Assembly (NCBI GenBank): GCA_015056365.1
Contig: SVGM01000003.1
Coordinates: 1 to 64,000 of the forward strand
Length of the DNA: 64,000 nt
Source: Clostridiales bacterium
GTDB lineage: Bacteria; Bacillota; Clostridia; Christensenellales; Aristaeellaceae
Direction: 5' to 3'
Position 1 is the stretch's first letter. Each line of letters starts with the position of its first letter. A program made the position numbers and the translations under genes. Below are positions 8,301 to 39,107 of this stretch, one piece after another. The notes under the pieces were generated by a model. That model made no database searches. It was not told the DNA's origin and worked only from the letters and a program-made list of their open reading frames with translations.

Positions 8301-11300
8301 CTTGCTCTGGCTCAGCATGTCTTCAGCCAGGGCGGTGGCCTCGCTGCTCAGCCCCTGCATATCCAGCTTGTTGCCGCTACGGCTGGCATAGTCAAAGATG
8401 CTCTTGATCCGTTGCGTAGCTTCGTCCAAATCCATCTCGCTGCTGGCGGCCTTCAGTACCCTGCGTGCCACTCTGGCCGCCTCCGCATCCGTCATCCGGT
8501 GGGCAGCAGTCATGGTCAGCAGCTCCTCCAGCACATTCTCGCCTTCACGCACGGTATCGTCGTAGTCGCTCATGCTATAGCGAATATCAGTATTGTCATC
8601 CTGAAAACGCTTAGAGAGAGGGATCACATTGCCAGCATCATCATAGGTCACTGGCTCGGCAGATTTGATCTGAGAGGATTCAAACGCCACCGCTTCGTCG
8701 CCATCTTCAGACTGCATCACGCCATCATAGCCCATTTCCTTCAACGTTGCAGTGAATTCTTTGTTGTGATCAAGAAGAACCCTTGTGAAGTTTGGCATAT
8801 CAACAGAGGAATACACTCTGGATGCAAGGTAATCATAGGAGATACTAAGCTTATCAACCTTGCCAGCCACACGTTTCTGAAATCCGTAGTCTTTGAATGT
8901 GTGTTTCTCTCCACCGTAGTCAAACTCATGAATTTCAGGATCCGCAAGCACAACAGTTTCCTTGTCTCCAAATTCTCCGTCCACTTCATCGTACAGGAAT
9001 TCGGTATCAGAGAGTACTTTCTTGTATTCGTCAGCAAATTCACGGATCGGAATCTCTTTAAAGCTTTCTCCTTTTCTTGCAACATCAATGGTAATTTTCT
9101 CTGCGATCTTGGGGAACTTGTCTGCAAAATTCATCAGCGCAACGGCACTTGATGCGTTGTAATCAAATGTTCTCTCGCCGTTGTATTCATGCAGGTTTTC
9201 TTGGAAGTTGAATGGGTTTGTCAGATTTAGATATGCAGGAATGATCCTTTTTCTTCCGTAAAAGGATGCCTCTCCTTTAGAATACGCAAAGTAGAACCCA
9301 CGCCCAAAGAACCCAGTGTCTCCGCTTGACATACCGATATATTGAGGATCAAACACTGTAAAGTCTTCAGAATTGGTTCCATGGTATACAACACGCAATT
9401 TCCCATTAGGCGTTCTCAGTTTGGAATCCGGCATGCTTTCCTCAGCGGCTTGTGCAACCAGATCAGCAATCTTGTCCATGTTCCCCTGCTCAACAGCAGA
9501 GGAATACGCTGCGTCAAAGTCAGAACGACTGTGCTTGACATTTTGTGTATCCCCTGCTATACTCCTAATGAAACCAAAGCGTTTTCCCCCCAAAGGCACA
9601 TGGATGCCGCGGGCTTGGAACCACGCAGAGGTTTCTTTTTTGTTTGGATTAAGGTACAAAACGGAGTCGTCTGTAATCTGACGCCAATAATCGCCTCGTG
9701 CGTGCACGGTTCTTATCTTTGCAATAGAAGCTGTTCCGCTTCTATCCTTGGCTATCATAACCCCGACAACAATTGGTGTTGTACCATTGTGGATCAGATG
9801 CCCATATACGCTCACTGTATTATTTTTATATTGCGTAATGACAATTGGATTTGCTAAAAGAGAAGGGATTTCCTTATACACTTTCTCACTTAGATGATCA
9901 CCATGCTTGTCCAATTCTTTAAGTGCTTTGCTGACATCAAAGTAAAGTTTACCGTTTGGAATTCCTACTTGCTCAAGTGGAGAGCCTTTTTCAATTGTTC
10001 CCACAGTAATATAACTATCCGGGTTAAGCTGACGTAGTTTATCTACAAGCCCAGAAAACAATTTATGTTCTGCGAATGATGCTGTTTTCGGACTTGACTT
10101 TGTCCCAGAATTTCCCGAAGCAGCTTCCCCCTCACTCTGCATAATGCTCTCCATCACATCATACAGCCCCTGCAGCGTAGCGGCATCTTCCTTCAGCGCC
10201 CCCATCTGCCGCCAGCTCTCGCTGCGCTCGCTCAAGGCCTTGCCCGCTGCTTTCACGTCGCTGATCAGGTTCTTCAACCAGTCCATCAACTTTTCAAACA
10301 GCGTCCGATCCTGCTCATACAGCTTTTGCAGCGTGCCTTCGTCCTGCAGCATGGCAGGTACCGTGTTGCAGATCACTTCCTCGGCGGCGTCCTCCCGGCT
10401 CAGGCCAAAGCTGTCCATCTGGTACTTAACCAACTTCTCAAAGTCCTGCCCCTTGTCAGTCAGCGCTTCCTGCACCCATCCGGAGAAGGTGCTCCAACTG
10501 GTTTCGTGCTCTGCCTTCAGCTGGTGGGTCAATTCGTGCATGGCTACATAGGCGTAGGCCTTGGCATCCGCATCCAATGCGATGTCAATCTGGCCCGTCT
10601 GGGGATTGTACTGTCCGTTGGCCCGCTGGCCATCTGCGGTGGCAATGCTGTCCACAATGTTGATGGTTGCGCCCATCCGCTTTGCCAGCTGGCTTACCAC
10701 TTCCATGTTGGCAGCTGCCACCCGCTGCTCCTGCCGGGTCATGCGGTTCCATGCGCCCTTGGTAAAACTCCGGTTCATTGTGCCCTTGGTAGAGGATAGG
10801 GGAGTGGTGGCTTGCTGATGCGCCCCGGCACCCAGCCCCGCAGCATACGCATCCTGCATAGCGCTCTGCGTCATCACCTGCGGGATCACGCTGCCCCGGA
10901 TCACCTCTGCCATGTCCATCCCGGCTGCTGCCCGGCGGTATACCATGCCATATGCCTGAGCATACTCCGAAGGAGCAACACTCTTGCCATTCACAGTTTC
11001 TGTATACCCGGTCAGGTAACTCTGCAATCCTTCGCCGCTCAGGTTCTTGGCGCCATCGGCGGTCATCAGCTCCTGCACCGTTTCGTCCGCAAAGGCCAGC
11101 TCGCCAGCCATGGCCGTGCCACGGTTGCCTGCTTCGTCAACGGTGTGCAGTACCACATTCTTTCCATCCTGCGTGGTCTCAAAGCCGATCACTTGCACAT
11201 TGCCACTACCGTTTTCGGCATCGATCATAGCCGCCGCCATGGGCCGGTCGAAGCGGCTCACACCATCTGCGTCCTCCTGCGCCACCGGTACTGCTTGCGC

Positions 11301-13433
11301 AGCTGCTTTCTGCTCAGTCTGCTTAGTTGCCAGTGCATCAGCTGCTGCTGCCAGTGGATCCACCATAGGCTGCATCTGCAATTGCTGGTCTGCGGTTTGC
11401 AGTCCACTGCTGTTCCTGTTGTAGATGAGTGCGTTGCTACCTGCCAGCAGGTTGCTCCCCTCGCCGCTGAGGAATCCCGTTGCGGCAGCGTTAAACACAT
11501 CCCACATCAGGTCTTTCTTCGCCTGGGCATGCGCTTCCTCGCTGCTCATGCCGGTTTGCTGGTATTGCGCCACATTCAGGTTGTAGTTGCTCATGGGGCC
11601 CATCAGCGCCTGATCGCTCACATGGCTCAGCAGCTCGCTCAAGCCTTCGCCGGGGGCTTCGCTCAAGCCGCCTTTCAACGCGCTTCCCAGCACATCCCGG
11701 AAGGTGCGAACGTCTTTTCCTTCGATGGTATCCAGCAGCGTGTCCATGGGCAGATATTCCGTGGCGGTTTCAAAGGCAATGCTCAGTCCACCAAGTGCCA
11801 GCGCCTGCTCATCCGTAGCGCCTCTCAGCTTGGCATCCTGGATCACGCTTCCTGCGCCGCTGCTGCCCAGCAGCAGAGAGCCACCCAGCGCAGAGCCACC
11901 GGAGAGCCGTCCGGCCACCAAGCTGTCAGCGCTGCTCATGGCTGCATTGTATCCGGTTTTCATCAGCCAACTTGCGAAAGTATCCGTGCCGTCCTCTTTC
12001 CCGTAATGGCGGGTAATATTCTGGCCCACCTCGTCACGCAGCGTCCCCGTCATCTGCCCAAACATGAACTGGTCAGCATATGGGTCTATTTCTTCGCCCG
12101 TCAGCTTCTGCGTTACGCTGTACAGTGTACCAGCAAGGCTCATTGGCGAGGTAAGCACGCTCAGTGCGCTGCTCCCTGCGCCGCCCCAGAAGCCGTTTCC
12201 TGCCATGTCCCGCAGCGCCTTATCACGTACAGCATAAGCCTTCTGGCCGTATTGCCCTTCCTGCCGCATGGCATTCCAGTAGTCCTGCGCTGTATCCGCT
12301 CCATAGCGGGCTGCCATGCCCATGTACACCGCTGCATCTTCGTCGGTCAGGTTTTGCAGCATCTGCGTGTCTCCGGTTTCCAGCATATCCACAGGGTTTA
12401 TTGCTCCATACTGTTCCCTAAAGCGGAGCTTGTTCATCAGGTCGGCATGCTCCGCTGCATCGCTGCCTTTGCGCTGGAACAAAGGTGCATGATAGCTTTC
12501 GCCATATGCTTCGCCCTCTTGCCCAATCCCGTACTGCTGTCCGTAACTGCGTAGGTAGTCCGCATCACTGCGCCCGGCATACTGGCCAATGTCCTCGCCC
12601 AGAGCCTCCGTCGCCGCCGTGGCCTTGTCTTCCAGTTGCTTTCGTCTGCGCTGTTCAGTTGGAGAATACTGCGCATTGGCCATGGCGGTGTCCAGCTGTT
12701 CCTGTAAATCTGCTTTGCGCACAGGGTCGCTTTCGGCATCGATGGCAGGTTGCAGGTATTCCTGCGCCCTTTTCGCCGCTTCGGGCAGGTTGTCTCTTTC
12801 GGCTTCCCATGCGTCATAGTCGTGCATATAGGTAAGGTAGCTGTCAGGGTTAATGCCATACACCGCAGGGGTTGCGGCTCTGCTTCCGGCAGTCACACCC
12901 TCCAGCGGTTTGTATACGAGTCCCCGCTGGTCTGCAGCCACAGCATTTTCGCCCGTTCCATACCAGCCATATCCAGCCGGTAGCCGCCCGGTGGCGTTCA
13001 CATCCGCCACCAGTCTCTGTCGCATCTGGTCTGTAGGTGCGGCAGTCCTTGCCATCTGATGAGGCATTTCTCTCTCAGTAGTCGCTCCCATGTTTGCGAA
13101 CGCATGCCTGCCTCCATCAGGTCTTTGTGCAATGCGGCTTGCCGCTTCGCTTGTTTCCCGGACGGCTGCACCCATCAGCATTCTGGCGGCGTCCCTTCTG
13201 GCCTGTGCTCGCTGTTCCTGCCGCTCCCGCACCGGATCAATGCCCTGGCTGCGCAGATAATTTTCACGGTTCACAGAAGCAGGCGAACGGGTGTCCGCCT
13301 GCTTCCTGCTGATAGTTCTTTTCGCTGCTGCCTGGGCTTCTGCTTTTCTCGCTGCTACTGCCGCAACTGCTTGTGCCAGCTTGTCTCTGTCTGTGGTTTT
13401 CTTTTTCTCAGGCAACCGAATATTCTTTGCCAT
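5385..13433 (-). CDS. Large polyvalent protein (internal virion/ejected protein) with protease, nuclease and ADP-ribosyltransferase-like modules
   Basis: At 2,682 aa this is by far the largest phage gene. Such proteins are packaged and enter the cell with the DNA. An N-terminal charged region is followed by a Gly/Ala-rich, partly hydrophobic part (about 380-640). A zincin-like domain has HELTH at 966-970. Residues about 1150-1310 resemble the PBECR (barnase-EndoU-colicin-like) nuclease domains of phage proteins. About 1345-1610 resembles ART-PolyVal, with VYHGT (His1351) and the following FGRGFYF segment. A long Ala/Lys/Glu-rich coiled coil spans about 1858-1980, and an LPD38-like region lies near 2460-2545. 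Junction peptides of RYS-SD type flank the modules. The 8,570-10,140 segment is more AT-rich than its surroundings. The ORF ends in TGA with an in-frame continuation. Confidence 0.85.
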   Translation of the reverse strand: MAKNIRLPEKKKTTDRDKLAQAVAAVAARKAEAQAAAKRTISRKQADTRSPASVNRENYLRSQGIDPVRERQEQRAQARRDAARMLMGAAVRETSEAASRIAQRPDGGRHAFANMGATTEREMPHQMARTAAPTDQMRQRLVADVNATGRLPAGYGWYGTGENAVAADQRGLVYKPLEGVTAGSRAATPAVYGINPDSYLTYMHDYDAWEAERDNLPEAAKRAQEYLQPAIDAESDPVRKADLQEQLDTAMANAQYSPTEQRRRKQLEDKATAATEALGEDIGQYAGRSDADYLRSYGQQYGIGQEGEAYGESYHAPLFQRKGSDAAEHADLMNKLRFREQYGAINPVDMLETGDTQMLQNLTDEDAAVYMGMAARYGADTAQDYWNAMRQEGQYGQKAYAVRDKALRDMAGNGFWGGAGSSALSVLTSPMSLAGTLYSVTQKLTGEEIDPYADQFMFGQMTGTLRDEVGQNITRHYGKEDGTDTFASWLMKTGYNAAMSSADSLVAGRLSGGSALGGSLLLGSSGAGSVIQDAKLRGATDEQALALGGLSIAFETATEYLPMDTLLDTIEGKDVRTFRDVLGSALKGGLSEAPGEGLSELLSHVSDQALMGPMSNYNLNVAQYQQTGMSSEEAHAQAKKDLMWDVFNAAATGFLSGEGSNLLAGSNALIYNRNSSGLQTADQQLQMQPMVDPLAAAADALATKQTEQKAAAQAVPVAQEDADGVSRFDRPMAAAMIDAENGSGNVQVIGFETTQDGKNVVLHTVDEAGNRGTAMAGELAFADETVQELMTADGAKNLSGEGLQSYLTGYTETVNGKSVAPSEYAQAYGMVYRRAAAGMDMAEVIRGSVIPQVMTQSAMQDAYAAGLGAGAHQQATTPLSSTKGTMNRSFTKGAWNRMTRQEQRVAAANMEVVSQLAKRMGATINIVDSIATADGQRANGQYNPQTGQIDIALDADAKAYAYVAMHELTHQLKAEHETSWSTFSGWVQEALTDKGQDFEKLVKYQMDSFGLSREDAAEEVICNTVPAMLQDEGTLQKLYEQDRTLFEKLMDWLKNLISDVKAAGKALSERSESWRQMGALKEDAATLQGLYDVMESIMQSEGEAASGNSGTKSSPKTASFAEHKLFSGLVDKLRQLNPDSYITVGTIEKGSPLEQVGIPNGKLYFDVSKALKELDKHGDHLSEKVYKEIPSLLANPIVITQYKNNTVSVYGHLIHNGTTPIVVGVMIAKDRSGTASIAKIRTVHARGDYWRQITDDSVLYLNPNKKETSAWFQARGIHVPLGGKRFGFIRSIAGDTQNVKHSRSDFDAAYSSAVEQGNMDKIADLVAQAAEESMPDSKLRTPNGKLRVVYHGTNSEDFTVFDPQYIGMSSGDTGFFGRGFYFAYSKGEASFYGRKRIIPAYLNLTNPFNFQENLHEYNGERTFDYNASSAVALMNFADKFPKIAEKITIDVARKGESFKEIPIREFADEYKKVLSDTEFLYDEVDGEFGDKETVVLADPEIHEFDYGGEKHTFKDYGFQKRVAGKVDKLSISYDYLASRVYSSVDMPNFTRVLLDHNKEFTATLKEMGYDGVMQSEDGDEAVAFESSQIKSAEPVTYDDAGNVIPLSKRFQDDNTDIRYSMSDYDDTVREGENVLEELLTMTAAHRMTDAEAARVARRVLKAASSEMDLDEATQRIKSIFDYASRSGNKLDMQGLSSEATALAEDMLSQSKTLDMQHEEEVADLRYYLKHNQIALSTEQQKEAASLMGGSYGAYRQALFGRVNLRNSGSALDGAVWEQLHETAPHLFPLDATSGDQVRLLMEAAEYVQPVYHNESGLDAREAAQWLTHELFKGYMNLSGVQSAAKEQNRLGLKLHQYRQVAERFAKEHKAAFDEAYAKVTKDANVRIAMAADKAERRADKAISEAAADADLRVAKAQAGVDKRIADAKQQNLADMEAYREAMREKARAWRSEFVTRHRDVERKNRYRAQILRETNQLLKKVEKPTDKQHVQDELTGALTAFLKSLDLGKRSRERSIGDRILRLRNMMQDAANGESTRSFIVDSDMLETMRFMAEQLQDMNSLDQLTADQMEQVRNIVHCAVWTVNKADTAFANQKAIRISSSAGRFLQEAGERKDWKDRGKIVNGARDFLTVGQMDSMHFFDKLGGAAKEMYQSLRNGLDKKTMHRAAAMAYVEEAVSKIPAKVQKELFAGKKAKATAYDLSGGTVELTKGQVMEIYCLNKREQARGHLYDESVGGIRVGDNDKARAVKVNEGDIEKLTDTLTSEEKALADALQQYMANECAQWGNETSLQLYGYKKFGEKNYYPIRVDPDSVDSNISSEGQQDNLYAIANMGMTKALKEKAKNALYIGDIFDTFCRHVDNMATYNAYAAPIADLVRWYNYRPGDGSSVKKMIQAKWGKEAAEYIPQLIRDLNGEVNRSYSPKWTEKLTGVMKSSSVGRNVRVVIQQPTAILRAGDMIDYRFLVRGMSGLTGKGGRVKLKKAIELSKQHCPIALLKSMGFFETDMGKSLRAALFDNRSVGDKVKDEGMWLAGKMDEMTFGAIWRACEAETRKLKPELTVGSEAYYEAVGNRMSGIIDYTQVVDTPFHRTQLMRSGDGLTKMATSFMSEPSKTYNMLASAMQRLKENRHDPVAKRKFCRTISAYALNTIVNAAAQSLIDAVRNGDDEDFWEKWGKAMFGDWSS

Positions 13434-17689: not shown

Positions 17690-19009
17690 TCAGTTGCTCT
17701 CGGCCACAGCGCCCATGCTCTCAGTGGAGTGCTCGATTCGTACCATGTACTCTTCGATCAGTCGCACAGCGGCCTTGGTCATCTTCCAGCCCTGGGTGGC
17801 GATCTGGTTCAGGGGGTCGCTGGTGCCGCCGCTGCCCCGCTGCTTGAAGATGTGCTCAAGGCCCAGGCCCTGAATGCTGGTGGTGGCGTAGGCCTTCTTG
17901 CCCAGCAGCATGGTGCAGTACACAGCGGAACCATCAGCACCAGCGCCATAGCCGCAAACCACCGCACCCGCCTCCACATTCTGGATGGCAGCGCTCACAG
18001 TCAGCTTGGCCACACCGGCTGCGCCAGCGGTCACGGCAGTCACGGTTGCTTCCTTGCCGCCCACATACACCTTCAGCGCCTCGCCGTTGGTGATCTTGTC
18101 GTTGGCTTCCTTCGCCTGTTCGGTGGAAATGGCGGTATCCAGCACAATGTACGTGCTGCCAGTACCGTCCAGCGCAGTGGCCAGCGGCGCACGACAGATG
18201 CCGGGCACCATCTCACCGGGGCCGATGATCTTGGCTTCAGTGCTCTCCACATAGCGCACGCCATGCAGCTTGCCGATTTCGCCCTGCTTGATCTCCTCCA
18301 AACTGGCGTACTTGTGCGCTTCGATCCACTCAGGGTCGCCGGTCACATCGCAGCTGGTGTCGGGATGGATAATGGCCACGAAGCCACCATCAAAGGGCTT
18401 GGCATTCACACGTTTCAGGTCATTCACACATTTGCGCATCACGGCAGGGGTCAGCCGGTTCTTGGTGGTGATGGCGCTGCGGGTCAGAATCTCGCTGGTG
18501 GTACCATCACCGTTGATGGTGGGCGCAAACCGCTTGCAGCTGCCGGCGCATACGATGTCACGGGTGATGGTGTCACCGGTGCGGCCTGCCTGGCTGCCCA
18601 GCATTTCACCGGTCTGCACAGCGATGGGGTCGATGGCGGTCACGTCGATCACATCAGAATAACGCACAAAGTCGCCAAACTGGTGTACATCAACAGTCAC
18701 CGTGCTCACGTCCAGCTTGTTGCCATCAGGCACAACGCCTTCCGTAAGCGGGGTCAGTGCTTTCTTCAAGGGTGCAAACTTTCGGAACTCCATCGTCTTG
18801 CCGCAATGGGCGGGGATGGGGTGGCTTTCCGCAAACCGATCATACACCAGCTCAGGCTCTGCGGTCTGAATCAGGTGCTTGTTGTAGTAGGTCTTCATTT
18901 CCGGGCTCATATCGTTGCCCGGAGTATTCAGCAGCGTGGTCTGCGTATCAGGGTAGCTGGTCGCAAACAGCTGCAGGTTCAGTCGCTTGGGGATTTCAAA
19001 ACAGGTCAT
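17690..19009 (-). CDS. Major capsid protein, N4-gp56 family
   Basis: The 439-aa protein matches the N4-gp56 capsid family as I know it: NDMSPEMKTYYNKHLIQTA, GKTMEFRKFAPLKKALTPLT, then FGDFVRYSDVIDVTAIDPI and a tyrosine- and aspartate-containing core. A Gly/Ala/Val-rich segment at about 325-390 looks like an inserted Ig-like or decoration region. Residues 10-16 are LNLQLFA, the same kind of site that Prp proteases cut in ribosomal protein L27, so the first 16 residues may be removed in assembly; prp and scaffold are the two genes just upstream. A terminator follows the gene. Confidence 0.9.
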   Translation of the reverse strand: MTCFEIPKRLNLQLFATSYPDTQTTLLNTPGNDMSPEMKTYYNKHLIQTAEPELVYDRFAESHPIPAHCGKTMEFRKFAPLKKALTPLTEGVVPDGNKLDVSTVTVDVHQFGDFVRYSDVIDVTAIDPIAVQTGEMLGSQAGRTGDTITRDIVCAGSCKRFAPTINGDGTTSEILTRSAITTKNRLTPAVMRKCVNDLKRVNAKPFDGGFVAIIHPDTSCDVTGDPEWIEAHKYASLEEIKQGEIGKLHGVRYVESTEAKIIGPGEMVPGICRAPLATALDGTGSTYIVLDTAISTEQAKEANDKITNGEALKVYVGGKEATVTAVTAGAAGVAKLTVSAAIQNVEAGAVVCGYGAGADGSAVYCTMLLGKKAYATTSIQGLGLEHIFKQRGSGGTSDPLNQIATQGWKMTKAAVRLIEEYMVRIEHSTESMGAVAESN

Positions 19010-19025
19010 ATCTTCCTACCTCCGT

Positions 19026-19062
19026 TCACATTCTTGCGCCCGGAGTTTTGTCCGGGCTTACA
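19026..19062 (-). other. Hairpin between scaffold and capsid genes
   Basis: The 48-base gap between the scaffold stop and capsid start can form GCCCGGA-loop-TCCGGGC (7 bp, 6-nt loop) on the minus strand. No T run follows, so it is unlikely to terminate. It may be an RNA processing or stability element for the abundant capsid mRNA. Confidence 0.45.
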
Positions 19063-19963
19063 GTCGGATCTTTTCACCCATCATGGCACGGCGGGTCGCT
19101 TCCCGCATGTCCTCATCCGTCCAGTCCTTGGGGTCTGCTTTCACAACCTTGGCCGCTGCCGTGCTGTTGCCGGCACCAGCTTCCTGCGGTCGCATGCCCC
19201 TTGCACGGATGTCCTCCACCGTGCGCTGCTGCGCAGTCTGCACAGCATAGCGGATGGCGCCGGAAAGCAGCTCGTCCTTATGCACCACTTCGTAGGCAGT
19301 CTTCACATCGATGCCGTTTTGGAGCAGCCGCACAAACCCCTCGTTCTGTGCTTCCACATCCAGCCGGAACTCTGGGTACACAGCCTTCAGCTTTTCGCCT
19401 TGTTCTACCCAGTCCTTGTAAACGTTGTCCCGTGCTTCCTGCCTCTCACGCTCAGCTAGAGCTTCTCTCAGCTGTGCATTTTCGTTGGTGATGCGCCTCT
19501 GCTCTTTCAGCTGCGGCACAGTCAGTCCCAGCCTGTCGGCCTCCTGCTCGTAGAAGCCGTCATCCTCATCGATGGCGGCTTGGAGCTGCTGTGCAAAGTC
19601 CTTGCTCCTCATGTCCACACCATATCGGGCGCTCAAAGCATCCAGCACAGGTCGCAAGGCTTCTCGCTCTTGCTCCAGCTTCTTCGTCTGCTTAAAGCGG
19701 GTGTCGATCATTTGCTGAGCCTTTTGGGTAAAGTCCTCCTTGTACTTGCCGTTGATGAGGCTATCGAAGCTCTCCGCCTCCGGCTGAGGCGCTTGTGGTG
19801 CCTCTGGCTGCGTTTCGGGCATGGCCGTGCCTTCCTGCTTGCCATAGATCACCGTGGTCTGCTCTCCCGCGGGTGCCGCCGTGCCTGCAGCATTGGCCGA
19901 TGCTGCGCCGTCACCGCCGCCCTCTGCAAACAGTTGCAGATCCATCCATCTCACTCTTTCCAT
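19058..19963 (-). CDS. Capsid scaffolding protein
   Basis: The ATG at 19963 (GGAGG five bases upstream) gives 301 aa; an ATG four codons earlier is possible. The sequence is typical of a scaffold: acidic, Glu/Gln/Ala/Arg-rich and mostly helical, with a long coiled coil (about 85-190) and a basic C-terminus (RRAMMGEKIRL) that would bind capsid protein. Near the start it carries MDLQLFAEGG, closely like the motif in the capsid and in Firmicutes L27. Position between prp and the capsid gene supports the role and suggests Prp cleavage before or during assembly. Confidence 0.85.
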   Translation of the reverse strand: MERVRWMDLQLFAEGGGDGAASANAAGTAAPAGEQTTVIYGKQEGTAMPETQPEAPQAPQPEAESFDSLINGKYKEDFTQKAQQMIDTRFKQTKKLEQEREALRPVLDALSARYGVDMRSKDFAQQLQAAIDEDDGFYEQEADRLGLTVPQLKEQRRITNENAQLREALAERERQEARDNVYKDWVEQGEKLKAVYPEFRLDVEAQNEGFVRLLQNGIDVKTAYEVVHKDELLSGAIRYAVQTAQQRTVEDIRARGMRPQEAGAGNSTAAAKVVKADPKDWTDEDMREATRRAMMGEKIRL

Positions 19964-19972
19964 GGGTACCTC

Positions 19973-20016
19973 CATCGTCTTTCCGAAGTGTCATTCATCG
20001 TCTTTCCGAAGGGTCA
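19973..20016. repeat. Tandem 21-nt direct repeat in the scaffold leader
   Basis: The 21-mer beginning catcgtctttccgaag occurs at 19973-19993 and again at 19996-20016 with one mismatch, a 23-nt period. It lies just upstream of the scaffold ribosome binding site and includes the alternative upstream ATG. It is probably a recent tandem duplication in the 5' untranslated region. Confidence 0.8.
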
Positions 20017-20046
20017 GCAATCTTTTCCGGTTTGCAAAACCAGCGT

Positions 20047-20079
20047 AACAAAACAAGCGCAGGGATTTCTCCCCACGCC
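20047..20079 (-). terminator. Weak terminator-like hairpin after prp
   Basis: On the minus strand GCGTGGGG-AGAAAT-CCCTGCGC forms an imperfect stem followed by TTGTTTTG. It resembles the better hairpins at 4360 and 24234. It lies between prp and the scaffold gene and could reduce readthrough slightly. Confidence 0.4.
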
Positions 20080-20089
20080 TGCCACTTTT

Positions 20090-20389
20090 TTATTCAGTGT
20101 ACTCCACACATTTGGGGTATTCCGCAGCCAACTGTTTCAGCCCAGCCTCCGCTACGCTCAGCATGGCTCTCGTTTGCTTGGTATCTGTAACCCTCAGCCA
20201 CATATGCCCGCTGCGCACCACGCTGTCCAGTCTGATGTTCTCCACACCTTCCAGCGCATACAGCAGGGCCTGTCCCAGCATGCTGGCAGCTGCGCACACA
20301 ATATCATCGCCCAGCTTGGCAAATCCTGCGTGCCCGTTCATGCTCAGCGTCAGCTCGCCATCCCGTTTGTCCACCACCACACAGATCAA
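20090..20389 (-). CDS. prp: Prp-family cysteine protease (phage capsid/scaffold processing)
   Basis: The 99-aa protein has the full Prp signature: GHAGFA with catalytic His20 and DIVCAAAS with Cys32, the spacing found in Staphylococcus aureus Prp. Host Prp removes the N-terminal extension of ribosomal protein L27. In phage 80alpha the same motif is found in the capsid and scaffold. Here prp lies directly between the portal gene (4-base overlap) and the scaffold gene, and both scaffold and capsid carry LQLFA motifs near their N-termini, so it most likely acts in head assembly. It could also act on host L27. No key residue is missing. Confidence 0.88.
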   Translation of the reverse strand: MICVVVDKRDGELTLSMNGHAGFAKLGDDIVCAAASMLGQALLYALEGVENIRLDSVVRSGHMWLRVTDTKQTRAMLSVAEAGLKQLAAEYPKCVEYTE

Positions 20390-22329
20390 GCCTTTCCACC
20401 TCCCTGGGGCATTGCCATCATGGGCGGCTGCGCCATCATTCCCTGCTGCTGCAACAGCATCTGCACTTGCGGTGCAAAACGTACCATACCGGCATCTGCA
20501 TCCAGCTGCGCCGCCATGGTCAGCGCCAGCTGTCCCAGCTGCTGCATTTTCTCCATCATGGTTTTCTGTTCGCTGATCTTCGCCTTCACACGATCAATGC
20601 CCTCAAATTCCATCATGTCAAGGGTCATCAATGCCTGGTCAGCCATGTCCGGCCGGAAGAAGCCCATCTGGTACAGCGCCTGCGCCCGCTCGTTCTGGAT
20701 TGCCGTATTGAAAGGATCGCTCTTCTGCGCCACCACACGAATATCGAAAACCGGCAGCCGCTGTGTCATGCCAGTCATGCCGTCACCTACAGTCTGGGGT
20801 GCAATGCTCCTGCCGCTGAATTTGGCAAACTGCATCTCTCCTCTCTTGCCCGTAATGCGGAAGGTCCTCTCCTCGGTGTAAAACTGCCGCATCAGGTCAA
20901 GGCAGAGATACCCTACCTGCGCAAAGGCACGGTATGCGCTGGCGATCATATCCCGACTCAGCTTGCTGCCTGCTTCTTTCAATGCCTGAATGGCGCTGAA
21001 AGCCGTCACGCCGCCCGTGGTTGCACCCTGAGAGAAGTCCCGGTTGCCGCTCACTTCTTTCAGCTCCTGTATCTTTTCGCCACGCATGGTCACAGCATAG
21101 GCATTCAGCTGTGTCACCGGGATCTGCACCACGCTGTCATTGGGGTTGGCGCTGCCGGTGAAATGCACAAAGTCATTCTCCGTATTCGCATATTCCTCCA
21201 CGTTCACATTGCCATCGTTTTTCAGCCAGAACCGGGGCTTAGCGCCCATGATCGTGTTTTTCAGCAGCGCACTGTCCAGCTTGTCAATGTACAGCTGTGC
21301 TCCCTTGCAAATATCAATGTACCCAAACCCGGCAGGGCTTTCCGGCACAGGAAAAAGTGCATCCAGTACATAGGGATACTTCCCGTGTTCGTAAAATCCG
21401 TTTTCGTATCCATCCTCACGTTCTGAGCAGAAAAGCACCTTACCAGCGCAAATCTTGCAGAAATGCAGCACTGTCTTTCCGTTCTGCATCCGCTTATAGT
21501 ACCAGTCCACCATCATCAGCTGATTGCTCTTGTCAATGCTCTCATCATGGACATATTCCGCTACCGTGATGATGCCACTGCCGCTGAAACTCTTGCCTTC
21601 TGTTACCTCCCTCAGCTGGGGATACTGCTGCCGTAGCTGATCGCCATCATGCAGGCTCACATAGAAGACATTTCGGCTCTTTTGAATATCTGTAATGCCA
21701 GGCTCCCAGTACAGGTTCAACAGGTCAAGGCTTCGCACACTGATGTCACCAAGCCCGTTGAGCTTGCTGGTGTCCCAGAAAACGCCTGTGCAGCCGGTAC
21801 CGCTGCGCAGCTTGTACCACCACATGTCGCTGTATACCTGTTCAAATTCGTTCTGCTCCAGCACCACAGGTAGCACATCACTCAGCGTGTTGGCGCTTTC
21901 CTTGTCGCTTTCCTCCCTGGGCAGCACCGCCAGCGATGGCATGTTATCCATGGCATCTGCATGTTTGTTGGCCAGCGCATTGAACAGCCACGCAGAAGAT
22001 GGGGCAGGGTCGCCGGGGTTGTTGCTGGCTGCCGCATTGTGTCGCTGCCGGTACCATGTTTCGTCTTCGATGATGCGTTTTTCAAGCTGCTGCTTACCCT
22101 GCTTGTACTTCTGCAACAGCTCCTCCGCTTTGCGCACCAGCGTTTCGTCCGTCAGTTCCACTGGTAGTCCTTCCTCCGTGCCCTCGATGGGGTGCAGCTG
22201 CCCGCCATCCTCCGGTCCCTCCAAGCCTCCCCTGTGTAAGGGGAGGTGGCCTGCGAGGCCGTAGGGGTTGCCCCGCACCAGCTCCCGCATGTTCTCTGCA
22301 TCCGCAGGCCGTTTCCTCTTCTCATCCAT
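20386..22329 (-). CDS. Portal protein
   Basis: The 647-aa product fits the portal of short-tailed or N4-gp56-type Clostridia phages in length, order (directly after terL, before prp, scaffold and capsid) and composition: a helical N-terminus (LLQKYKQGKQQLEKRIIEDE, about 70-90), a central clip/wing region with WYKLRSGTGCTGVFWD and YWEPGITDIQKSRN, a long helix around 480-520, and a Gln/Met-rich C-terminal crown region ending in a repeated Met/Gln/Pro stretch. Residues about 20-38 (GNPYGLAGHLPLHRGG) are encoded by a dispersed double-hairpin repeat, so the true N-terminus has been extended by an inserted element. The start is therefore less certain than the rest. Confidence 0.85.
   Translation of the reverse strand: MDEKRKRPADAENMRELVRGNPYGLAGHLPLHRGGLEGPEDGGQLHPIEGTEEGLPVELTDETLVRKAEELLQKYKQGKQQLEKRIIEDETWYRQRHNAAASNNPGDPAPSSAWLFNALANKHADAMDNMPSLAVLPREESDKESANTLSDVLPVVLEQNEFEQVYSDMWWYKLRSGTGCTGVFWDTSKLNGLGDISVRSLDLLNLYWEPGITDIQKSRNVFYVSLHDGDQLRQQYPQLREVTEGKSFSGSGIITVAEYVHDESIDKSNQLMMVDWYYKRMQNGKTVLHFCKICAGKVLFCSEREDGYENGFYEHGKYPYVLDALFPVPESPAGFGYIDICKGAQLYIDKLDSALLKNTIMGAKPRFWLKNDGNVNVEEYANTENDFVHFTGSANPNDSVVQIPVTQLNAYAVTMRGEKIQELKEVSGNRDFSQGATTGGVTAFSAIQALKEAGSKLSRDMIASAYRAFAQVGYLCLDLMRQFYTEERTFRITGKRGEMQFAKFSGRSIAPQTVGDGMTGMTQRLPVFDIRVVAQKSDPFNTAIQNERAQALYQMGFFRPDMADQALMTLDMMEFEGIDRVKAKISEQKTMMEKMQQLGQLALTMAAQLDADAGMVRFAPQVQMLLQQQGMMAQPPMMAMPQGGGKA
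22223..22274. repeat. Double-hairpin mini-repeat, copy A (inside the portal gene)
   Basis: The sequence contains CCTCCCC-TGTGTAA-GGGGAGG followed by a GGCC-centred hairpin and ends in GGGGTTGCCCC. It matches copies B (29119) and C (34378) in layout and much of the sequence. It lies fully inside the 5' end of the portal reading frame and is translated without a stop. Such elements are miniature dispersed repeats resembling MITE or REP elements of gut Clostridia. Confidence 0.8.
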
Positions 22330-22344
22330 CTGTTGTCATCCTCC

Positions 22345-23742
22345 TCACACAATCTGTATTCCATTCCCGTTCCTGCGTCCCCGCATGGCGTTCCAATCAA
22401 CTCCCAGCGGGTCGTAGGGCATGGGCTTCTTTTCCTTCTGCTGGGGCGGCGCCATGGGATTGAGCATGCACATATACCGCCATTCATCCGCCACGTGATC
22501 CTCACCCTTTGTGTCCAGATCCTCCGGCATGTGATCGTCGTAGATCAATAGGGGAATGGTGCGGATAAACGCCTTGCAGCAGTCAAACACATACATCATC
22601 GGCAGTCCGTTTTCGTCAAACCGTAGCCGATAGTGGCATTGCATCCAGCCGGGAATACGCTTGTTATCGCCCGGCGAGAAGAACACCCCATGCCGGGCTG
22701 CTGTCTGTGCAATGCTCACACCGCCATCTGCCGCCCAGATCGCCGGGTCTGCCACACCTTCCACCTTGTGGCCGCTCAGCCATGGGTGCTCCCGCTCAAT
22801 TTGCGCAATCCGGGCAAACTGCTCGTCCGCCGTCCACTTCACGCCCTCGTTGGGCGTGTCTGTACATCCGTACAGCTCCAATATCCGGTACATGCGCCCA
22901 TCGTGATCCACACACCACCATGCACAGCTGAAGGGTCTGGAATAGCCAAAGTCATAACTTCGGTATCTCTTCCAGCTCTTGGGCGGGTCGAATGCCTCAA
23001 TCACGTGGGTGTTCGTGCGTAGCGGGTTGGGGTTGTCCACAAATTCTTCAAAAAATTGCCCCTCAAACAGGTTCCATTCTCCGTGCAGCCATGCCCTGCG
23101 CAGCTTACTGGGCAGCGCTTCCAACTGTGCTTTGTACTCTGGCTGCGCTTTCATCAGCGCCCGGTTATCATCCACCAGCGACTGGATGAACGCATAATCC
23201 TCCGGTTTTTCTTCGTCCTTGAATTTCTTATCAATGAACAGCCGCTTCACCCATGCGTGTCCGGGCCCACCGGGATTGCAGGTCAACCGTAGATGCAACG
23301 GGTATCCCTTGGTGGACCTGAGACAGGCCGACAGCTTCTGGAATACGCCTTCCGTGTGCTGTGTGGCTTCGTCCAGGTCGATCTCCTCAAACTCGATACC
23401 TTGGGCGTGATCCAAGTCTTCCTCCCTTGCGCAGTACATCAGGCTGATGGTAGAGCCATTGGCAAATGTGAAAATCTTCTCGCTTTTGTTGTAGGTCGCA
23501 ATTTTCGGAGGAAGCATCTCCTTCAGTGGCCGCACATGGTTGGCAAGAAGCTCCGGGTAGGTCTTACGGATGATGCACACCCGGATTCCCGGATACCTCA
23601 GTGCGGTAATCACTGCATTCACACGCACCGCCCAACTCTTGCCGCCTCCACGGGCTCCACCGAAGCAGATGTACTTGGCTTTGTTCTCCATAAAGGTTTG
23701 CTGCTTGGGGCTGGGCTCTGGAATATGCAGCTCAATCGCCAT
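22345..23742 (-). CDS. terL: Terminase large subunit
   Basis: The ATG at 23742 with GGAGG eight bases upstream gives 465 aa; longer frames overlap terS. It packages DNA into the procapsid. The ATPase half shows Walker A GGARGGGKS (28-36) and Walker B-like EIDLDEATQ. The nuclease half begins YDFGYSRPFSCAWW (about 265), with GVADPAIW further on (about 345), the acidic residues expected of the RNase H-like nuclease. The start overlaps the terS stop by 11 bases, showing coupling. The portal gene follows within 16 bases. Confidence 0.95.
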   Translation of the reverse strand: MAIELHIPEPSPKQQTFMENKAKYICFGGARGGGKSWAVRVNAVITALRYPGIRVCIIRKTYPELLANHVRPLKEMLPPKIATYNKSEKIFTFANGSTISLMYCAREEDLDHAQGIEFEEIDLDEATQHTEGVFQKLSACLRSTKGYPLHLRLTCNPGGPGHAWVKRLFIDKKFKDEEKPEDYAFIQSLVDDNRALMKAQPEYKAQLEALPSKLRRAWLHGEWNLFEGQFFEEFVDNPNPLRTNTHVIEAFDPPKSWKRYRSYDFGYSRPFSCAWWCVDHDGRMYRILELYGCTDTPNEGVKWTADEQFARIAQIEREHPWLSGHKVEGVADPAIWAADGGVSIAQTAARHGVFFSPGDNKRIPGWMQCHYRLRFDENGLPMMYVFDCCKAFIRTIPLLIYDDHMPEDLDTKGEDHVADEWRYMCMLNPMAPPQQKEKKPMPYDPLGVDWNAMRGRRNGNGIQIV

Positions 23743-24205
23743 TTGCGTCGCCTCCATCAAATGGGTCAAACACAACCCTGATGGTGTTATCTTCGTTGCC
23801 AGCAGCCTCCGCAGGCTTGTCACGCCATTTGTCCGGACGGCGATTCTTCAGCCAGTAGATTTGCGCAGTGGTGTCTGGCGGCACGTGTTTCGTTACCTTT
23901 TTCGTTATTACCAGCGCACTTTCACCTGTTTCAGCGTCCTTGCGCAGCTCTTCCGTAATCTCTTCATAGCTGTATCCCAGTGCACGCCGCAAAAGCGCAT
24001 TCTCCACTTTGGCATCCACCGGGGCCTTCCCTTTTTTTAGGGCCTGTAAAATCTGCCCGTGCGCCAGCTTCCACTTGCCCAGCGTCCGCACGCTGATGCC
24101 CATCTTCATGGCAATCTGCTCTTCCGTCAGGCCCTCTCTTGCCCAGGCTTCGATCATCATCAGGCCGTCCTCTGTCAGCCACTCACCGTATCTGGCATTG
24201 GCCAC
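23732..24205 (-). CDS. terS: Terminase small subunit
   Basis: The GTG at 24205, six bases after AGGAGGT, gives 157 aa starting VANARYGEWLTEDGLMMIEA. The helix-turn-helix (EGLTEEQIAMKMGISVRTLGKW) is the DNA-recognition part, followed by a helical middle and a C-terminal TTAQIYWLKNRRPDKWRDK motif characteristic of terminase small subunits. It is the first gene of the virion-assembly operon. A strong terminator lies only about 30 bases upstream, leaving almost no room for a promoter. Confidence 0.9.
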   Translation of the reverse strand: MANARYGEWLTEDGLMMIEAWAREGLTEEQIAMKMGISVRTLGKWKLAHGQILQALKKGKAPVDAKVENALLRRALGYSYEEITEELRKDAETGESALVITKKVTKHVPPDTTAQIYWLKNRRPDKWRDKPAEAAGNEDNTIRVVFDPFDGGDANGD

Positions 24206-24233
24206 GTCCTCACCTCCTATGCTGTGAGGGTAC

Positions 24234-24265
24234 AAAAAAGGCGAAGGGTTTTTCTCCCTTCGCCT
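24234..24265 (-). terminator. Strong terminator between early genes and terS
   Basis: On the minus strand a perfect 10-bp stem (AGGCGAAGGG with CCCTTCGCCT, 7-nt loop) is followed by six T. It ends the early transcript just before terS, so late transcription must bypass it or begin inside the 28-base remainder, where no promoter is visible. Confidence 0.88.
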
Positions 24266-32970: not shown

Positions 32971-33159
32971 TCATTTCACCTTCCTTTTGTTTTCACGCAG
33001 TCGTTGCTGCTTTGATTTTCTTCTCATGCACCAGCCATGATCCTGCGTTGCTTTCCCGTTTACGATCACCAGCACACGCCCACGCAGCAGCCCGCATTTG
33101 TATGCGCTTGCCCCTACGTTCCAGCACTCACGGCAATTCCGGCAGTCCAGTGCCCTCAT
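32971..33159 (-). CDS. Small basic Cys-containing phage protein
   Basis: The ATG at 33159 with an AGG element eight bases upstream gives 62 aa; a GTG at 33168 is a less likely start. The product is strongly basic, with C-x2-C-x2-C near the start (CRNCREC), two further cysteines, and a Lys/Arg-rich tail. It may be a nucleic acid-binding zinc protein. Its start overlaps the end of the HNH gene. Function unknown. Confidence 0.5.
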   Translation of the reverse strand: MRALDCRNCRECWNVGASAYKCGLLRGRVLVIVNGKATQDHGWCMRRKSKQQRLRENKRKVK

Positions 33160-33877
33160 CCGTTTCACCTGCCTCGTGCTCTGCCAGCGCCTGCAGTAGC
33201 TCTTCGTCAGCCTCCGCCCGCAGCTTGTAGATTATGGCGATCTCCTTCGTGATCTCTATTGGCGCCAGAAGGTACTTGTCCATGAATGCTGCATCCCCCA
33301 GCTGGTGCGCTTCAAAGTGGTGGCCACGCACGCCCCAGCAGAGGGAAATCCCCATCAGTCCCACATGGCCAATGCGCCGCCGGTTCCGGCCCATGCCTAC
33401 TGCGTCCACGTGGTGCATGCCGGCATGCCGCCGGCACACGGCGCACACGCCATGGATGGCGCATTGGTACACATACGCTTCTACGTCCTCCGCCATCTGC
33501 CACAGCGGCTCCTTGGTGGGCACATCAAACTCAATGCAGATTTCCACCAGAAATGTGATGTATTCCCTCGCCGTGGTCATGTCCGTGTCCCGTAGGCTGA
33601 ACATCTCCACGGGTTCCTCGACATCCCGCATTTGTGCCAGAAACTTCGCTTTCAGCTCTTGGTGCATTTGCCGCTTGTCGCTCTGGCTCAGGTACCCACA
33701 GTGCCGGGCGATCTCGCCGATGAGCGCCCACGCCTTGCGCCGCTGCTCAGGTGATATGCTCCGCTTGTCATGCCAGATCACCGTCACCTCATCGCTCAGG
33801 TTGTCCATCGGAGGAGCCGTGGTCTTGATGATGATCCCATCACCGTGCCGGTAGGCACGCCCTATAGTCTGCGCCAC
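33128..33877 (-). CDS. Putative HNHc nuclease (HNHc_6 type)
   Basis: The GTG at 33877 gives 249 aa and begins with the family's first strand (VAQTIGRAYRHGDG); a longer frame to 33988 would overlap the SH3 gene. Middle: KRSISPEQRRKAWALIGEIA, a helical region, then the HNH core CAVCRRHAGMHHVDAVGMGR (about residues 155-175) with later H-L-G and HHFEAHQLGDAAF, which contains the last His/Asp positions. This is the HNHc_6 family of phage recombination-region nucleases. It probably acts in DNA recombination or replication. The catalytic residues appear intact. Confidence 0.78.
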   Translation of the reverse strand: MAQTIGRAYRHGDGIIIKTTAPPMDNLSDEVTVIWHDKRSISPEQRRKAWALIGEIARHCGYLSQSDKRQMHQELKAKFLAQMRDVEEPVEMFSLRDTDMTTAREYITFLVEICIEFDVPTKEPLWQMAEDVEAYVYQCAIHGVCAVCRRHAGMHHVDAVGMGRNRRRIGHVGLMGISLCWGVRGHHFEAHQLGDAAFMDKYLLAPIEITKEIAIIYKLRAEADEELLQALAEHEAGETDEGTGLPELP

Positions 33878-33953
33878 TTGCGCATCCCGCCTTTGTGTGT
33901 TATAATTATTTCGTTCTTTTTCCAAAGGTTCTTTGGGGGTCTGTGATTCGCCG

Positions 33954-36461: not shown

Positions 36462-37076
36462 ATGGAAATGTCAGAAAAAATCAAGTTTCTTCGTATGAAA
36501 AATAAGCTCACTCTTGAGGAAGTGGGAAATAAAGTCGGAGTAGGGAAGAGCACTGTTCGCAAATGGGAAAGCGGCCAAATTGCAAATATGCGCCGTGATA
36601 AGATTGCAAAACTTGCTGAGGCACTGAATACCACTCCCGCTTACCTAATGGGTTGGGAGGAATCCTCCGCTCCCGCCATCCCCGGCATCGAGCACCCCAC
36701 CTTCCACGCCGTCCCTCTCCTGGGCGAGATCGCCTGTGGGGAGCCCATCCTCGCCGAGGAAAACCTCGAAGGCAAGGTGCAGGTGGATGGGGGAGTGGCC
36801 TGCGATTTTGCCCTCCGCTGTAAAGGCGACAGCATGGCTCCCCGGCTGCTGGATGGCGATTTGGTCTTTATCCGCCAGCAGCCATCCGTGGATAACGGTC
36901 AGATCGCCGCTGTCCTCATTGATACCGAAGCCACCCTCAAGCATGTCTATGTCAGCCCTTCCAGTATCCAGCTGGTGGCAGAGAACCCCGCCTATGCGCC
37001 CATCGTCCTCACTGGTGAGGATGCAGAGAACGCCCGCATTCTGGGCAAAGCAGTAGCCTACCGGCGTATGATTTGA
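36462..37076 (+). CDS. CI/LexA-like prophage repressor (HTH + S24 peptidase)
   Basis: The 204-aa protein keeps the prophage silent. N-terminal HTH: EKIKFLRMKNKLTLEEVGNK, GVGKSTVRKWESG (about 5-60). C-terminal S24/LexA-type self-cleavage domain: cleavage region GEIACGEP (Ala91-Cys92-Gly93; usual sites are Ala-Gly), catalytic Ser124 in GDSMAP and Lys160 in EATLKH. The insertion of Cys between Ala and Gly is seen in several phage repressors. GAGGTGA precedes the ATG, and its own promoter overlaps an inverted repeat. RecA-stimulated cleavage after DNA damage is the expected induction route. Confidence 0.92.
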   Translation: MEMSEKIKFLRMKNKLTLEEVGNKVGVGKSTVRKWESGQIANMRRDKIAKLAEALNTTPAYLMGWEESSAPAIPGIEHPTFHAVPLLGEIACGEPILAEENLEGKVQVDGGVACDFALRCKGDSMAPRLLDGDLVFIRQQPSVDNGQIAAVLIDTEATLKHVYVSPSSIQLVAENPAYAPIVLTGEDAENARILGKAVAYRRMI

Positions 37077-37135: not shown

Positions 37136-37489
37136 GTGGTAGCATTAGCCTTTTTAGCCGTATTTGTGTTCATTATGTTCTGCGTTTTTGTGGTCGCTAA
37201 GATCTATCGGGGTTTTCAATCCGATGAGAGCCAAAAAGGCAGCAATGTCATACCGTGGCTTGCTGTCGGCTTTGGTATCATCCTCTTCTGTTTCGTCCCA
37301 CTTATTGTTTACATTTGCAAAGGCGGGCTGTCTGGCATGGCGTTTGTAGATGCAGTCGTTCACATCGTTGATATGGTTTTTTCCGGCGAAACAGATATTA
37401 CATCCACCTTTATCGGTTTGATCCTTGTCTATGCTTTCATTATGTATGTTATCAGGATAGGCCAGATCTTCACAGGTGAAAAGAAATAG
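37136..37489 (+). CDS. Small multi-pass membrane protein of the lysogeny module
   Basis: The GTG at 37136 (GGAG eight bases upstream) gives 117 aa. Three hydrophobic segments are visible: about 1-23 (ALAFLAVFVFIMFCVFVVAK), 40-62 (IPWLAVGFGIILFCFVPLIV) and 86-106. Expressed from the repressor transcript in the lysogen, it could act in superinfection exclusion, but nothing in the sequence proves that. It overlaps the 5' extension of the integrase frame. Confidence 0.6.
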   Translation: MVALAFLAVFVFIMFCVFVVAKIYRGFQSDESQKGSNVIPWLAVGFGIILFCFVPLIVYICKGGLSGMAFVDAVVHIVDMVFSGETDITSTFIGLILVYAFIMYVIRIGQIFTGEKK

Positions 37490-37526
37490 AAAATCTGCTC
37501 AAGTGCTACAGAAAGGAAGTCTGCTC

Positions 37527-39107
37527 ATGCCACACAGTGCGTATATCCGCAAATCCAGAAAAGACATCGAAGCTGAGCAGCAGGGAGCGGGGGAGACCCT
37601 TGCCCGTCATCGCCGGATACTGCTGGAGCTTGCCAGACGGAACGGCCATGTTATTGATCAGATTTACGAGGAGATCGTCTCCGGAGACTCCATTGCGGAG
37701 CGTGCCATGATGCAGCAGCTCCTCGCTGATGTGCAAGCTGGCAAATGGTCTGGGGTTTACGTTTATGAGGTCGAACGTCTCGCCCGTGGCGATACCATCG
37801 ATCAGGGTATCGTAGCTCAAACTTTCCAGTATTCTGGCACCCTCATCATCACCCCGCAGCGCACCTTCAACCCCGCAAACGAGGCCGACAGCGAATACTT
37901 CGAGTTCGGCCTCTTCATGTCACGCCGGGAGTACAACACCACCAAGCGCCGCCTTATGGCTGGCCGCTGGGCATCCCACAACGAAGGCAAGTATCTTGGC
38001 AGCCGGGACCCTTTCGGCTATCAGCGGTACAAGCTCCCTGGTCAGAAGGGCTGGTCTCTGCGCATTGTCCCCGAACAGGCTAAGCTGGTTCGCTGGGCCG
38101 CTGATGTGTATCTCCATGGCCGGGATGTGGTGGATCCCCTCACCGGCCAGACCACCCACGAGCCGGTTGGTGCCCAGATCATTGCCAACGAATTCAACGC
38201 CATGGGGGTCACAACCACCCTGGGCAACCAGTGGACGGCCAATGGGGTGCGCCATATGCTCCAGTGGCCAGGCTATATCGGCAAGGTCCAGTGGTTCCAG
38301 CGGGAAACAAAAGTCGCCATCGTGGATGGCCAACGTCAAAAGTCCCGCCCCGTATCAGATAAATATTCCCTGCAGGATGGCCTCCATGAGCCGATCCTCG
38401 ATCAATCTACATGGGATCAGCTGCAAGCCACCTTCGCCGGCCGTAAAAAAGGAGCAGTCAACACAGGCCGCAAGGTCATGTCGCCCCTTAACGGCTTGGT
38501 CAAATGCTCCGAGTGCGGCAAGGCCATGATCCGTACCCCCATGTACGGCCACCTTGCCGGTATCGACTATCTCAAGTGCTCAACCGTGGGTTGTCCTACT
38601 TCCTCCGCCCCTTTGGCCGATGTGGAATCTCTCATCCTCCAAACCTTGCAGGAGTGGGTCACATGGGTAGAGACAGACGCATGGCCCACTGAATACGGTG
38701 ATTCCTCCAATCAACACACTGAGGACATGCGTGTGGCTGCCCAGAAGCATCTGGATGATCTTCACAAGCGCCGCCTCCGCCTTATGGAACTGCTGGAACA
38801 AGAAATCTACGACATCCCCACCTACTCTCAGCGAAACACCGCCCTGTCCGAAGAAATCGCACGGGCACAATCAGCCATTGATGCACTCCCGCCTCCTCAG
38901 CAGGATCGCCGCAGCCGGATCACAGCCCTGCTACCGCAGCTTAAAGCACTCCTTCAAGCCTACTCTTCCGATCTTCCTCCGGCTGATCGGAATGCCCTGC
39001 TTTTCACTGTGCTCGATAAGGTTATCTATACCAAGACCCGCCGCTGCTTCCGAAACGAAAACCCTATCGATCATGTTGGTATTGAGCTTTTCCCGAAGTC
39101 TCTTTAA
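37527..39107 (+). CDS. int: Large serine recombinase (phage integrase)
   Basis: The ATG at 37527 with AAAGGA nine bases upstream gives 526 aa. Catalytic N-terminal domain: AYIRKSRKD with the nucleophilic serine near residue 10, EIVSGDSIAERAMMQQLLAD and YVYEVERLARGD. The recombinase domain (about 155-300) has GYQRYK and the wedge NGVRHMLQWPGYIGKVQW. A zinc ribbon follows (about 325-365): CSECGKAM, then a C-containing TVGCP segment. The C-terminal coiled coil (about 400-470) controls directionality. It catalyses attP x attB integration with no tRNA target needed. It is the last phage gene on this side, so the attachment site follows. Confidence 0.95.
   Translation: MPHSAYIRKSRKDIEAEQQGAGETLARHRRILLELARRNGHVIDQIYEEIVSGDSIAERAMMQQLLADVQAGKWSGVYVYEVERLARGDTIDQGIVAQTFQYSGTLIITPQRTFNPANEADSEYFEFGLFMSRREYNTTKRRLMAGRWASHNEGKYLGSRDPFGYQRYKLPGQKGWSLRIVPEQAKLVRWAADVYLHGRDVVDPLTGQTTHEPVGAQIIANEFNAMGVTTTLGNQWTANGVRHMLQWPGYIGKVQWFQRETKVAIVDGQRQKSRPVSDKYSLQDGLHEPILDQSTWDQLQATFAGRKKGAVNTGRKVMSPLNGLVKCSECGKAMIRTPMYGHLAGIDYLKCSTVGCPTSSAPLADVESLILQTLQEWVTWVETDAWPTEYGDSSNQHTEDMRVAAQKHLDDLHKRRLRLMELLEQEIYDIPTYSQRNTALSEEIARAQSAIDALPPPQQDRRSRITALLPQLKALLQAYSSDLPPADRNALLFTVLDKVIYTKTRRCFRNENPIDHVGIELFPKSL

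Follow-up and report, generated by a model that had tools for sequence, protein, structure and literature searches.

A Clostridiales prophage carries a Prp-family protease gene beside scaffold and capsid genes with matching L27-like sites

The window analyzed here is the first 64 kb (64,000 nucleotides) of the 212-kb contig SVGM01000003.1 from a Clostridiales bacterium (assembly GCA_015056365.1; 2.6 Mb in 30 contigs). Its left part is a temperate phage (prophage) of this gut bacterium. The head operon of the prophage includes a gene for a cysteine protease of the Prp family, and this report concerns that enzyme and the scaffold and capsid proteins encoded next to it. On the minus strand the genes run in the order terminase small subunit, terminase large subunit, portal, prp, scaffold-position protein, capsid. 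The prp gene (20090..20389, minus strand) encodes 99 amino acids from a TTG start that sits within the portal stop codon (TTGA overlap). The scaffold-position protein (19058..19975, minus strand) lies between prp and the capsid gene, matches phrog_13908 (function unknown), and carries WMDLQLFA near its N terminus; since no named family matched, we call it the scaffold from its gene position and its relatives. The capsid gene (17690..19009, minus strand) encodes a major capsid protein of the N4-gp56 type (TIGR04387, 230.8 bits against a cut-off of 60, from residue 30; phrog_1357), while the match to Pfam PF25209 stays under its cut-off (22.9 against 27). Near the C-terminal third of this capsid (window approximately 17690-18250) is an insertion that is absent from L058-type relatives in the alignment. 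IMG/VR holds the same phage, with 100% identity across Prp and capsid. With the window Prp as a single query against viral contigs, the same phage alone was matched, and the capsid proved the better bait.

An earlier note, made from the DNA letters, had read here a complete phage Prp with His20 and Cys32, an N4-gp56 capsid, and the motifs MDLQLFA and LNLQLFA near the N termini of scaffold and capsid, and all of these readings were borne out. Phage Prp matches PF04327, the Prp peptidase family (MEROPS C108), with 58.4 bits against a cut-off of 27. His20, Asp29, and Cys32 are invariant across 26 aligned Prp sequences; their SaPrp counterparts H22, D31, and C34 form a His-Cys dyad with a loop-stabilizing Asp (PMC9405229 section 3.3). 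A structure model of the phage protein matches solved Prps, consistent with a Prp fold. The protein thus resembles ribosomal Prp (ysxB, of the rplU-prp-rpmA order) in family, dyad, and predicted fold, but it falls under the NCBIfam equivalog cut-offs for ribosomal Prp (best score, 41.8 against 171), and its gene lies between portal and scaffold rather than between rplU and rpmA, the genes of L21 and L27. It also differs in its branch of the Prp tree and in its probable substrates, which would be phage proteins. A quick tree separated the phage Prps from 31 host Prps. An earlier tree, made without the Prp of the window's host (L001), had placed the Oenococcus phage Prp among host copies with weak support; the later tree took in L001. 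The host has this prp of its own on a different contig, beside a gene for long L27 (MLKLNLQFF|AHKKG; here and below, a vertical bar marks a known or predicted cut). In public records, phage prp genes are labeled "ribosomal protein," "peptidase," "unknown," or "hypothetical."

Both neighbors of Prp carry an L27-like site. In the scaffold, MDLQLF|A is encoded at 19925..19945 (minus strand), with the predicted cut between the codons ending at 19928 and starting at 19927; in the capsid, whose N terminus reads MTCFEIPKRLNLQLF|A, LNLQLF|A is encoded at 18962..18982 (minus strand), with the predicted cut between the codons ending at 18965 and starting at 18964. The scaffold probably begins at the ATG at 19963 (MERVRWMDLQLF|A), which by eye has a better Shine-Dalgarno sequence than the listed ATG at 19975. 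Across 34 gene-like open reading frames (ORFs) of the prophage (11,943 amino acids), the pattern LQ[LFHMRI]FA turns up twice, against 0.017 expected from 300 shuffles, and both occurrences lie within the first 17 residues, one in the scaffold and one in the capsid. An N-terminal LQxFA was found in none of the other 32 gene-like prophage ORFs listed, and we claim no tail-protein site for the window. A looser expression, labeled "strict" in the survey below, picked up one extra listed gene (AQTIG at 33128-33988), which lacks LQxFA. Genome-wide, 19 sites fit the codon pattern [LF]Q[LF]FA; those that by eye are both N-terminal and L27-like belong to L27, the scaffold, and the capsid. By eye, neither an acetyltransferase-like ORF (L271) nor L264 is an extension.

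Taken with the comparisons below, the arrangement makes it very probable that the prophage encodes a dedicated Prp (MEROPS C108) for virion maturation, with cleavage predicted from sequence. Prp, made from the head operon together with portal, scaffold, and capsid, would recognize the L27-like N-terminal peptide on newly made proteins. A cut after the Phe would remove 12 residues from the scaffold and 15 from the capsid, and this trimming would take place during procapsid assembly. By analogy with phage 80alpha, the peptide may in addition retain scaffold and capsid, or tether them to the protease, while one of the two is still lacking. Classical prohead proteases such as HK97 gp4 and T4 gp21 have a head-maturation role and belong to a different protease family with a different site.

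Two precedents bear on this proposal. According to an excerpt of the source, Streptococcus phage Cp-1 encodes a Prp-family cysteine protease (MEROPS C108, clan CR) that takes 48 residues off the N terminus of its major head protein (PMC12445089). Cp-1 differs from the window phage in being phi29-like, and its head protein is the one substrate that the excerpt reports as cut. By eye, LQxFA is absent near the N termini of the Cp-1 head protein and of its possible scaffold, whereas the window phage has both the enzyme and a predicted site. Cp-1 orf13 (L003 8805-9119), which we take to be the protease, matches PF04327 weakly (18.5 bits, below the cut-off of 27). The second precedent is 80alpha, in which host Prp cleaves both capsid and scaffold at the F|A bond, as excerpts of PMC5744158 state and as the site listing gives it (PMC9405229 Table 1). 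The window phage shares with 80alpha an L27-like site at both capsid and scaffold N termini; the two differ in phage type and in the enzyme, which in 80alpha is the host's own, that phage being without a prohead protease (PMC9405229). Similar tags occur on other phage proteins, for example, a phi13 tail protein (PMC5744158, in excerpt). In open-licence PubMed Central titles and abstracts, no report of a phage-encoded Prp with matching sites in the phage's own proteins, of its breadth, or of its independence from L27 was found among the matches listed.

The breadth of the association was surveyed in related loci. From 65 IMG/VR loci with the capsid and 80 loci kept of 366 from GTDB genomes (145 in all), 24 were dropped for lack of a found capsid or for a frame start less than 2.5 kb from an edge, leaving 121. 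The first rule asked for a prp no farther than 3 kb upstream of the capsid frame, and by hidden Markov model (HMM) 86 loci had one. Three more were recoded after inspection: L166, with a divergent prp missed by the HMM; L103, with a full prp behind portal, approximately 7 kb from the scaffold; and L022, with prp elsewhere in the record. This gave 89 Prp+ and 32 Prp-less loci; the recoding raised the prp-motif association and lowered the host contrast described below. L008, an IMG/VR fragment of the L103 type with no prp in its 14.7 kb, was kept as Prp-less, a choice that works against our proposal. On the L103 contig, approximately 7 kb of small ORFs, partly in repeated segments, lie between prp and scaffold (L282 approximately 5900-12001); the block split in this phage is compact elsewhere.

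The capsid motif was matched by regular expression in 87/89 Prp+ loci and 15/32 Prp-less loci (Fisher P = 3.3e-10). With one representative (the first member) per capsid cluster, the counts were 41/43 against 9/23 at 80% identity (P = 8.9e-7; 3/66 clusters mixed) and 10/11 against 2/8 at 60% (P = 0.006; 4/19 mixed). A scaffold motif (strict or semi) was matched in 72/89 Prp+ and 15/32 Prp-less loci (P = 4.7e-4). The same expressions match 85/659 other long ORFs. These tables use raw labels, under which L135 and L180 count as "none" and L045 as "semi," though the L045 match falls inside the capsid core. L135 and L180, the two Prp+ capsids missed, by eye each share a degenerate site with their own scaffold (SLYLL|D / SLYLL|E and ISLSSF / INLASF). 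The search of related N4-gp56 phages that the earlier note had proposed thus favors its claim, and the close relatives with prp and no motif that it named as refuting were not found. In L009, a close Prp+ relative (81% in capsid), both proteins have drifted together (LDLTMFD / LDLCMFD). The note's broader idea of a phage-encoded head protease is likewise supported by the survey; it had left out the Cp-1 precedent (PMC12445089, in excerpt).

No capsid motif was matched in the other 17 Prp-less loci. By eye, 13 of these 17 capsids start at the would-be mature N terminus (MADYKVQTT, MSNTQTT, etc.), a parallel to short L27 relative to long L27. The other four (L014, L015, L016, and L064) are not clearly at a mature start and have LKLQLFA on the scaffold only. 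In these four IMG/VR records, in which no prp was seen, the capsid frame opens with a hydrophobic signal-like stretch.

Several results weigh against a dedicated phage protease. The scaffold association is not significant at 70% (P = 0.086) or 60% (P = 0.074) clustering, and 17/89 Prp+ phages have no scaffold motif by regular expression, among them a clade with an LQLFG capsid (L145, L149, L155, L157, L161, L163, L167, and L182). Conversely, the capsid motif match is retained in the 15/32 loci without prp, and L150 keeps LNLHLFA / LDLRLFD with a short host L27 and no Prp found in its bin. Prp-lessness is firm for the genome-derived loci, for which whole bins were searched, and uncertain for the IMG/VR records because these are mostly fragments. 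The capsid tree has 15 changes of prp, and 12 independent pairs on it gave 5 in the same direction, 0 opposite, and 7 without difference, an underpowered test that is not significant (median P = 0.0625 with hand-corrected labels; with raw labels, 3.9 the same way and median P = 0.125). Finally, cleavage of the 80alpha capsid is dispensable according to excerpts of PMC5744158, so the benefit of cutting may be small.

The relatedness of the loci, the weakening of the association on clustering, and the nonsignificant tree test would also fit a motif that is simply an inherited N-terminal feature, unrelated to Prp and kept through common descent. We consider this extremely unlikely, since the same motif variants are common to scaffold and capsid, which are nonhomologous by annotation, and since the motif recurs in cultured phages of other genera, tail proteins included. 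Seven cultured phages with prp were examined: Oenococcus Krappator149 and phi9805, Enterococcus phiFL3A, Lactococcus PLgT-1 and TP712, Latilactobacillus TMW 1.1447 P1, and Dorea DO134P1, with roles in TP712 and DO134P1 assigned by position. A site is present in the scaffold-position protein of all seven (7/7) and in the major head protein of all seven (7/7), the head site of DO134P1 being LQVF|T, which the strict expression misses. A tail protein is also tagged in 5/7 (LQLL|A in phiFL3A), the exceptions being PLgT-1 and TP712. In the Oenococcus phages (L070 and L251), an unusual LQRFA tag appears alike in scaffold, head, and major tail protein. By comparison, LQxFA was found at either N terminus in 0/7 of those window-capsid relatives that had no prp in the portion examined (Bacillus Pascal, Paenibacillus API480, Pseudomonas Rollin, Streptomyces FlowerPower and BRock, Stenotrophomonas StenR_269, and Pseudoalteromonas Y3), which also speaks against common descent; a looser expression gave two "semi" capsid matches (FlowerPower and StenR_269), by eye inside the core. 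The prp of DO134P1 (L253 approximately 6950-7260) is unannotated. A further record, "Efs 1-1-1" (L254, OR846610.1), deposited as an Enterococcus phage, has prp followed by L27; it is bacterial DNA and was dropped.

Within a phage, the capsid and scaffold sites vary together. Among 35 cluster representatives with both sites by raw expression, capsid and scaffold of one phage share 122 residues at P4-P1', against 102.1 in permuted pairs, and 0/10,000 permutations scored as high. By position, the effect lies at P3 (P = 0.011), P2 (P = 0.003), and P1' (P = 0.0007), with none at P4 or P1. A hand-edited run, with the sites of L135, L180, L171, and L172 set by eye and the scaffold matches of L158 and L162 dropped, gave 133 against 106.5 in 37 pairs; without those six loci, 33 pairs gave 119 against 101.5 (maximum of 117 in 10,000). 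All of these figures are inflated by relatedness of the phages. Matched variants (capsid / scaffold) include LRLF|D / MRLF|D (L156), ILNMF|D / ILSMF|D (L166), and, in a human faecal phage (L262), LKKLHTQMF|D / LKKLHTHMF|D. Co-variation of this kind is best explained by one protease with a phage-specific taste acting on both proteins.

That protease might be the host's. As in 80alpha (PMC5744158, in excerpt), the sites could be cut by host Prp, with phage Prp redundant or otherwise employed. The window's host does have Prp and long L27, and Prp-less phages with a strict motif (L110, L136, L137 and L140 in one genome, L141, L151, and L160) had a host Prp in 6/6 genomes, against 4/11 for motif-less ones (P = 0.035). 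We judge this reading improbable. Among phages of long-L27 hosts, the site matches host L27 at P3-P1 in 3/44 Prp+ phages, against 4/8 Prp-less motif-bearing ones (P = 0.007), and Prp specificity varies between species (PMC9405229 section 1.3). A phage that brings its own enzyme would not need to match host Prp, so its sites would be free to drift from the host L27 site. At least two Prps were present in 42/47 searched genomes with a prp-bearing phage.

Four phages also bear on this. L135, L166, L179, and L248 each combine prp with a matched site that lacks Q at P3. Their metagenome-assembled genome (MAG) bins have a short L27 (M|AHKK or M|ASKK), and a search of them found no host Prp; bins may be incomplete or mixed and a missing contig may mimic Prp absence, and the L27 start was read as a check. 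Prp and matched motif are thus kept in hosts with no host Prp found, which supports, from gene content, the earlier note's suggestion that head maturation is independent of the host enzyme. L248 (G214:C77:44500-48500), the second prophage of its short-L27 genome, has a prp of divergent sequence (1343-1681) and the sites LDLHLF|E (scaffold) and LNLALF|A (capsid); L159, the first phage of that genome, lacks both prp and motif. L131 and L133 share an identical Prp, and L131 lies in a MAG with long L27 and L133 in one with short L27. Either the binning is in conflict or the host range is broad, and L133 was left out as a clean case for this reason. L180, an N4-gp56 phage that carries prp, comes from a bin with the title Heimdallarchaeota and is probably mis-binned; having no L27 found in its bin, it was unused on the host side.

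The same four phages bear on whether phage Prp instead targets host L27 and so hastens or disrupts ribosome assembly in the infected cell. The enzyme family is the same and the site similar, host L27 having LNLQFFA, and action on host L27 is a possible, weaker reading. As the main role of the gene we hold it to be very improbable. With short L27 and no host Prp found, the phage enzyme of these four cannot serve L27 processing, and yet prp is kept. Moreover, prp is placed in the packaging/head operon, the sites co-vary among the phage's own proteins and are mostly unlike L27, and the window's host has its own Prp.

A different question is whether cutting is the point at all. The N-terminal peptide could be mainly a binding tag and Prp a chaperone that holds scaffold and capsid, the cut being secondary. 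Excerpts on 80alpha report that its scaffold requires the N-terminal tag and not the cut (PMC5744158), and SaPrp has been proposed as an L27 chaperone (PMC9405229 section 3.3.2). We regard this as unlikely to be the main function: the catalytic residues are invariant, as expected under selection for catalysis, and P1 is Phe in 35/37 representatives, in capsid and scaffold alike, though the expressions partly demand Phe. The chaperone role and maturation by proteolysis are not mutually exclusive.

The 80alpha oddity becomes a testable rule, in which finding prp in a phage genome leads one to expect an LQxF|A-like tag on the scaffold and head proteins and at times on a tail protein, and likely substrates can be assigned to a phage gene of vague public annotation. 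The loci also offer natural protease/substrate pairs with apparently changed specificity (LQLF, LQRF, LTHF, LRLF, and SLYLL). Prp is a proposed antibiotic target (PMC9405229), and phage copies of other specificity bear on inhibitor design. The findings raise the question of which came first, phage use or ribosomal use. We offer only tentatively, as a doubtful conjecture, that Prp is at root a virion-maturation family of Firmicutes phages from which the bacterial Prp/long-L27 pair was domesticated; it would take in the phages of hosts without long L27, with a self-carried Prp and a phage-private tag on scaffold, capsid, and sometimes tail.

The remaining genes complete the prophage. Upstream of prp on the minus strand are the portal protein (P22-like; 20386..22329; PF16510, 112.8 bits), the terminase large subunit (22345..23823; PF04466 and PF03237), and the terminase small subunit (23732..24235; phrog_309, E = 6.5e-56). 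Replication genes are also present, as are, on the plus strand, a CI-like repressor (36462..37076; phrog_4, transcriptional repressor) and a serine recombinase (37476..39107; PF00239 and PF07508), near which a repeat scan found none. A transporter gene (SNF family) lies at 44238. At the other end of the window are a tail-spike-like protein (136-3090) and, within the virion gene block, a single ORF of 2682 amino acids (5385-13433).

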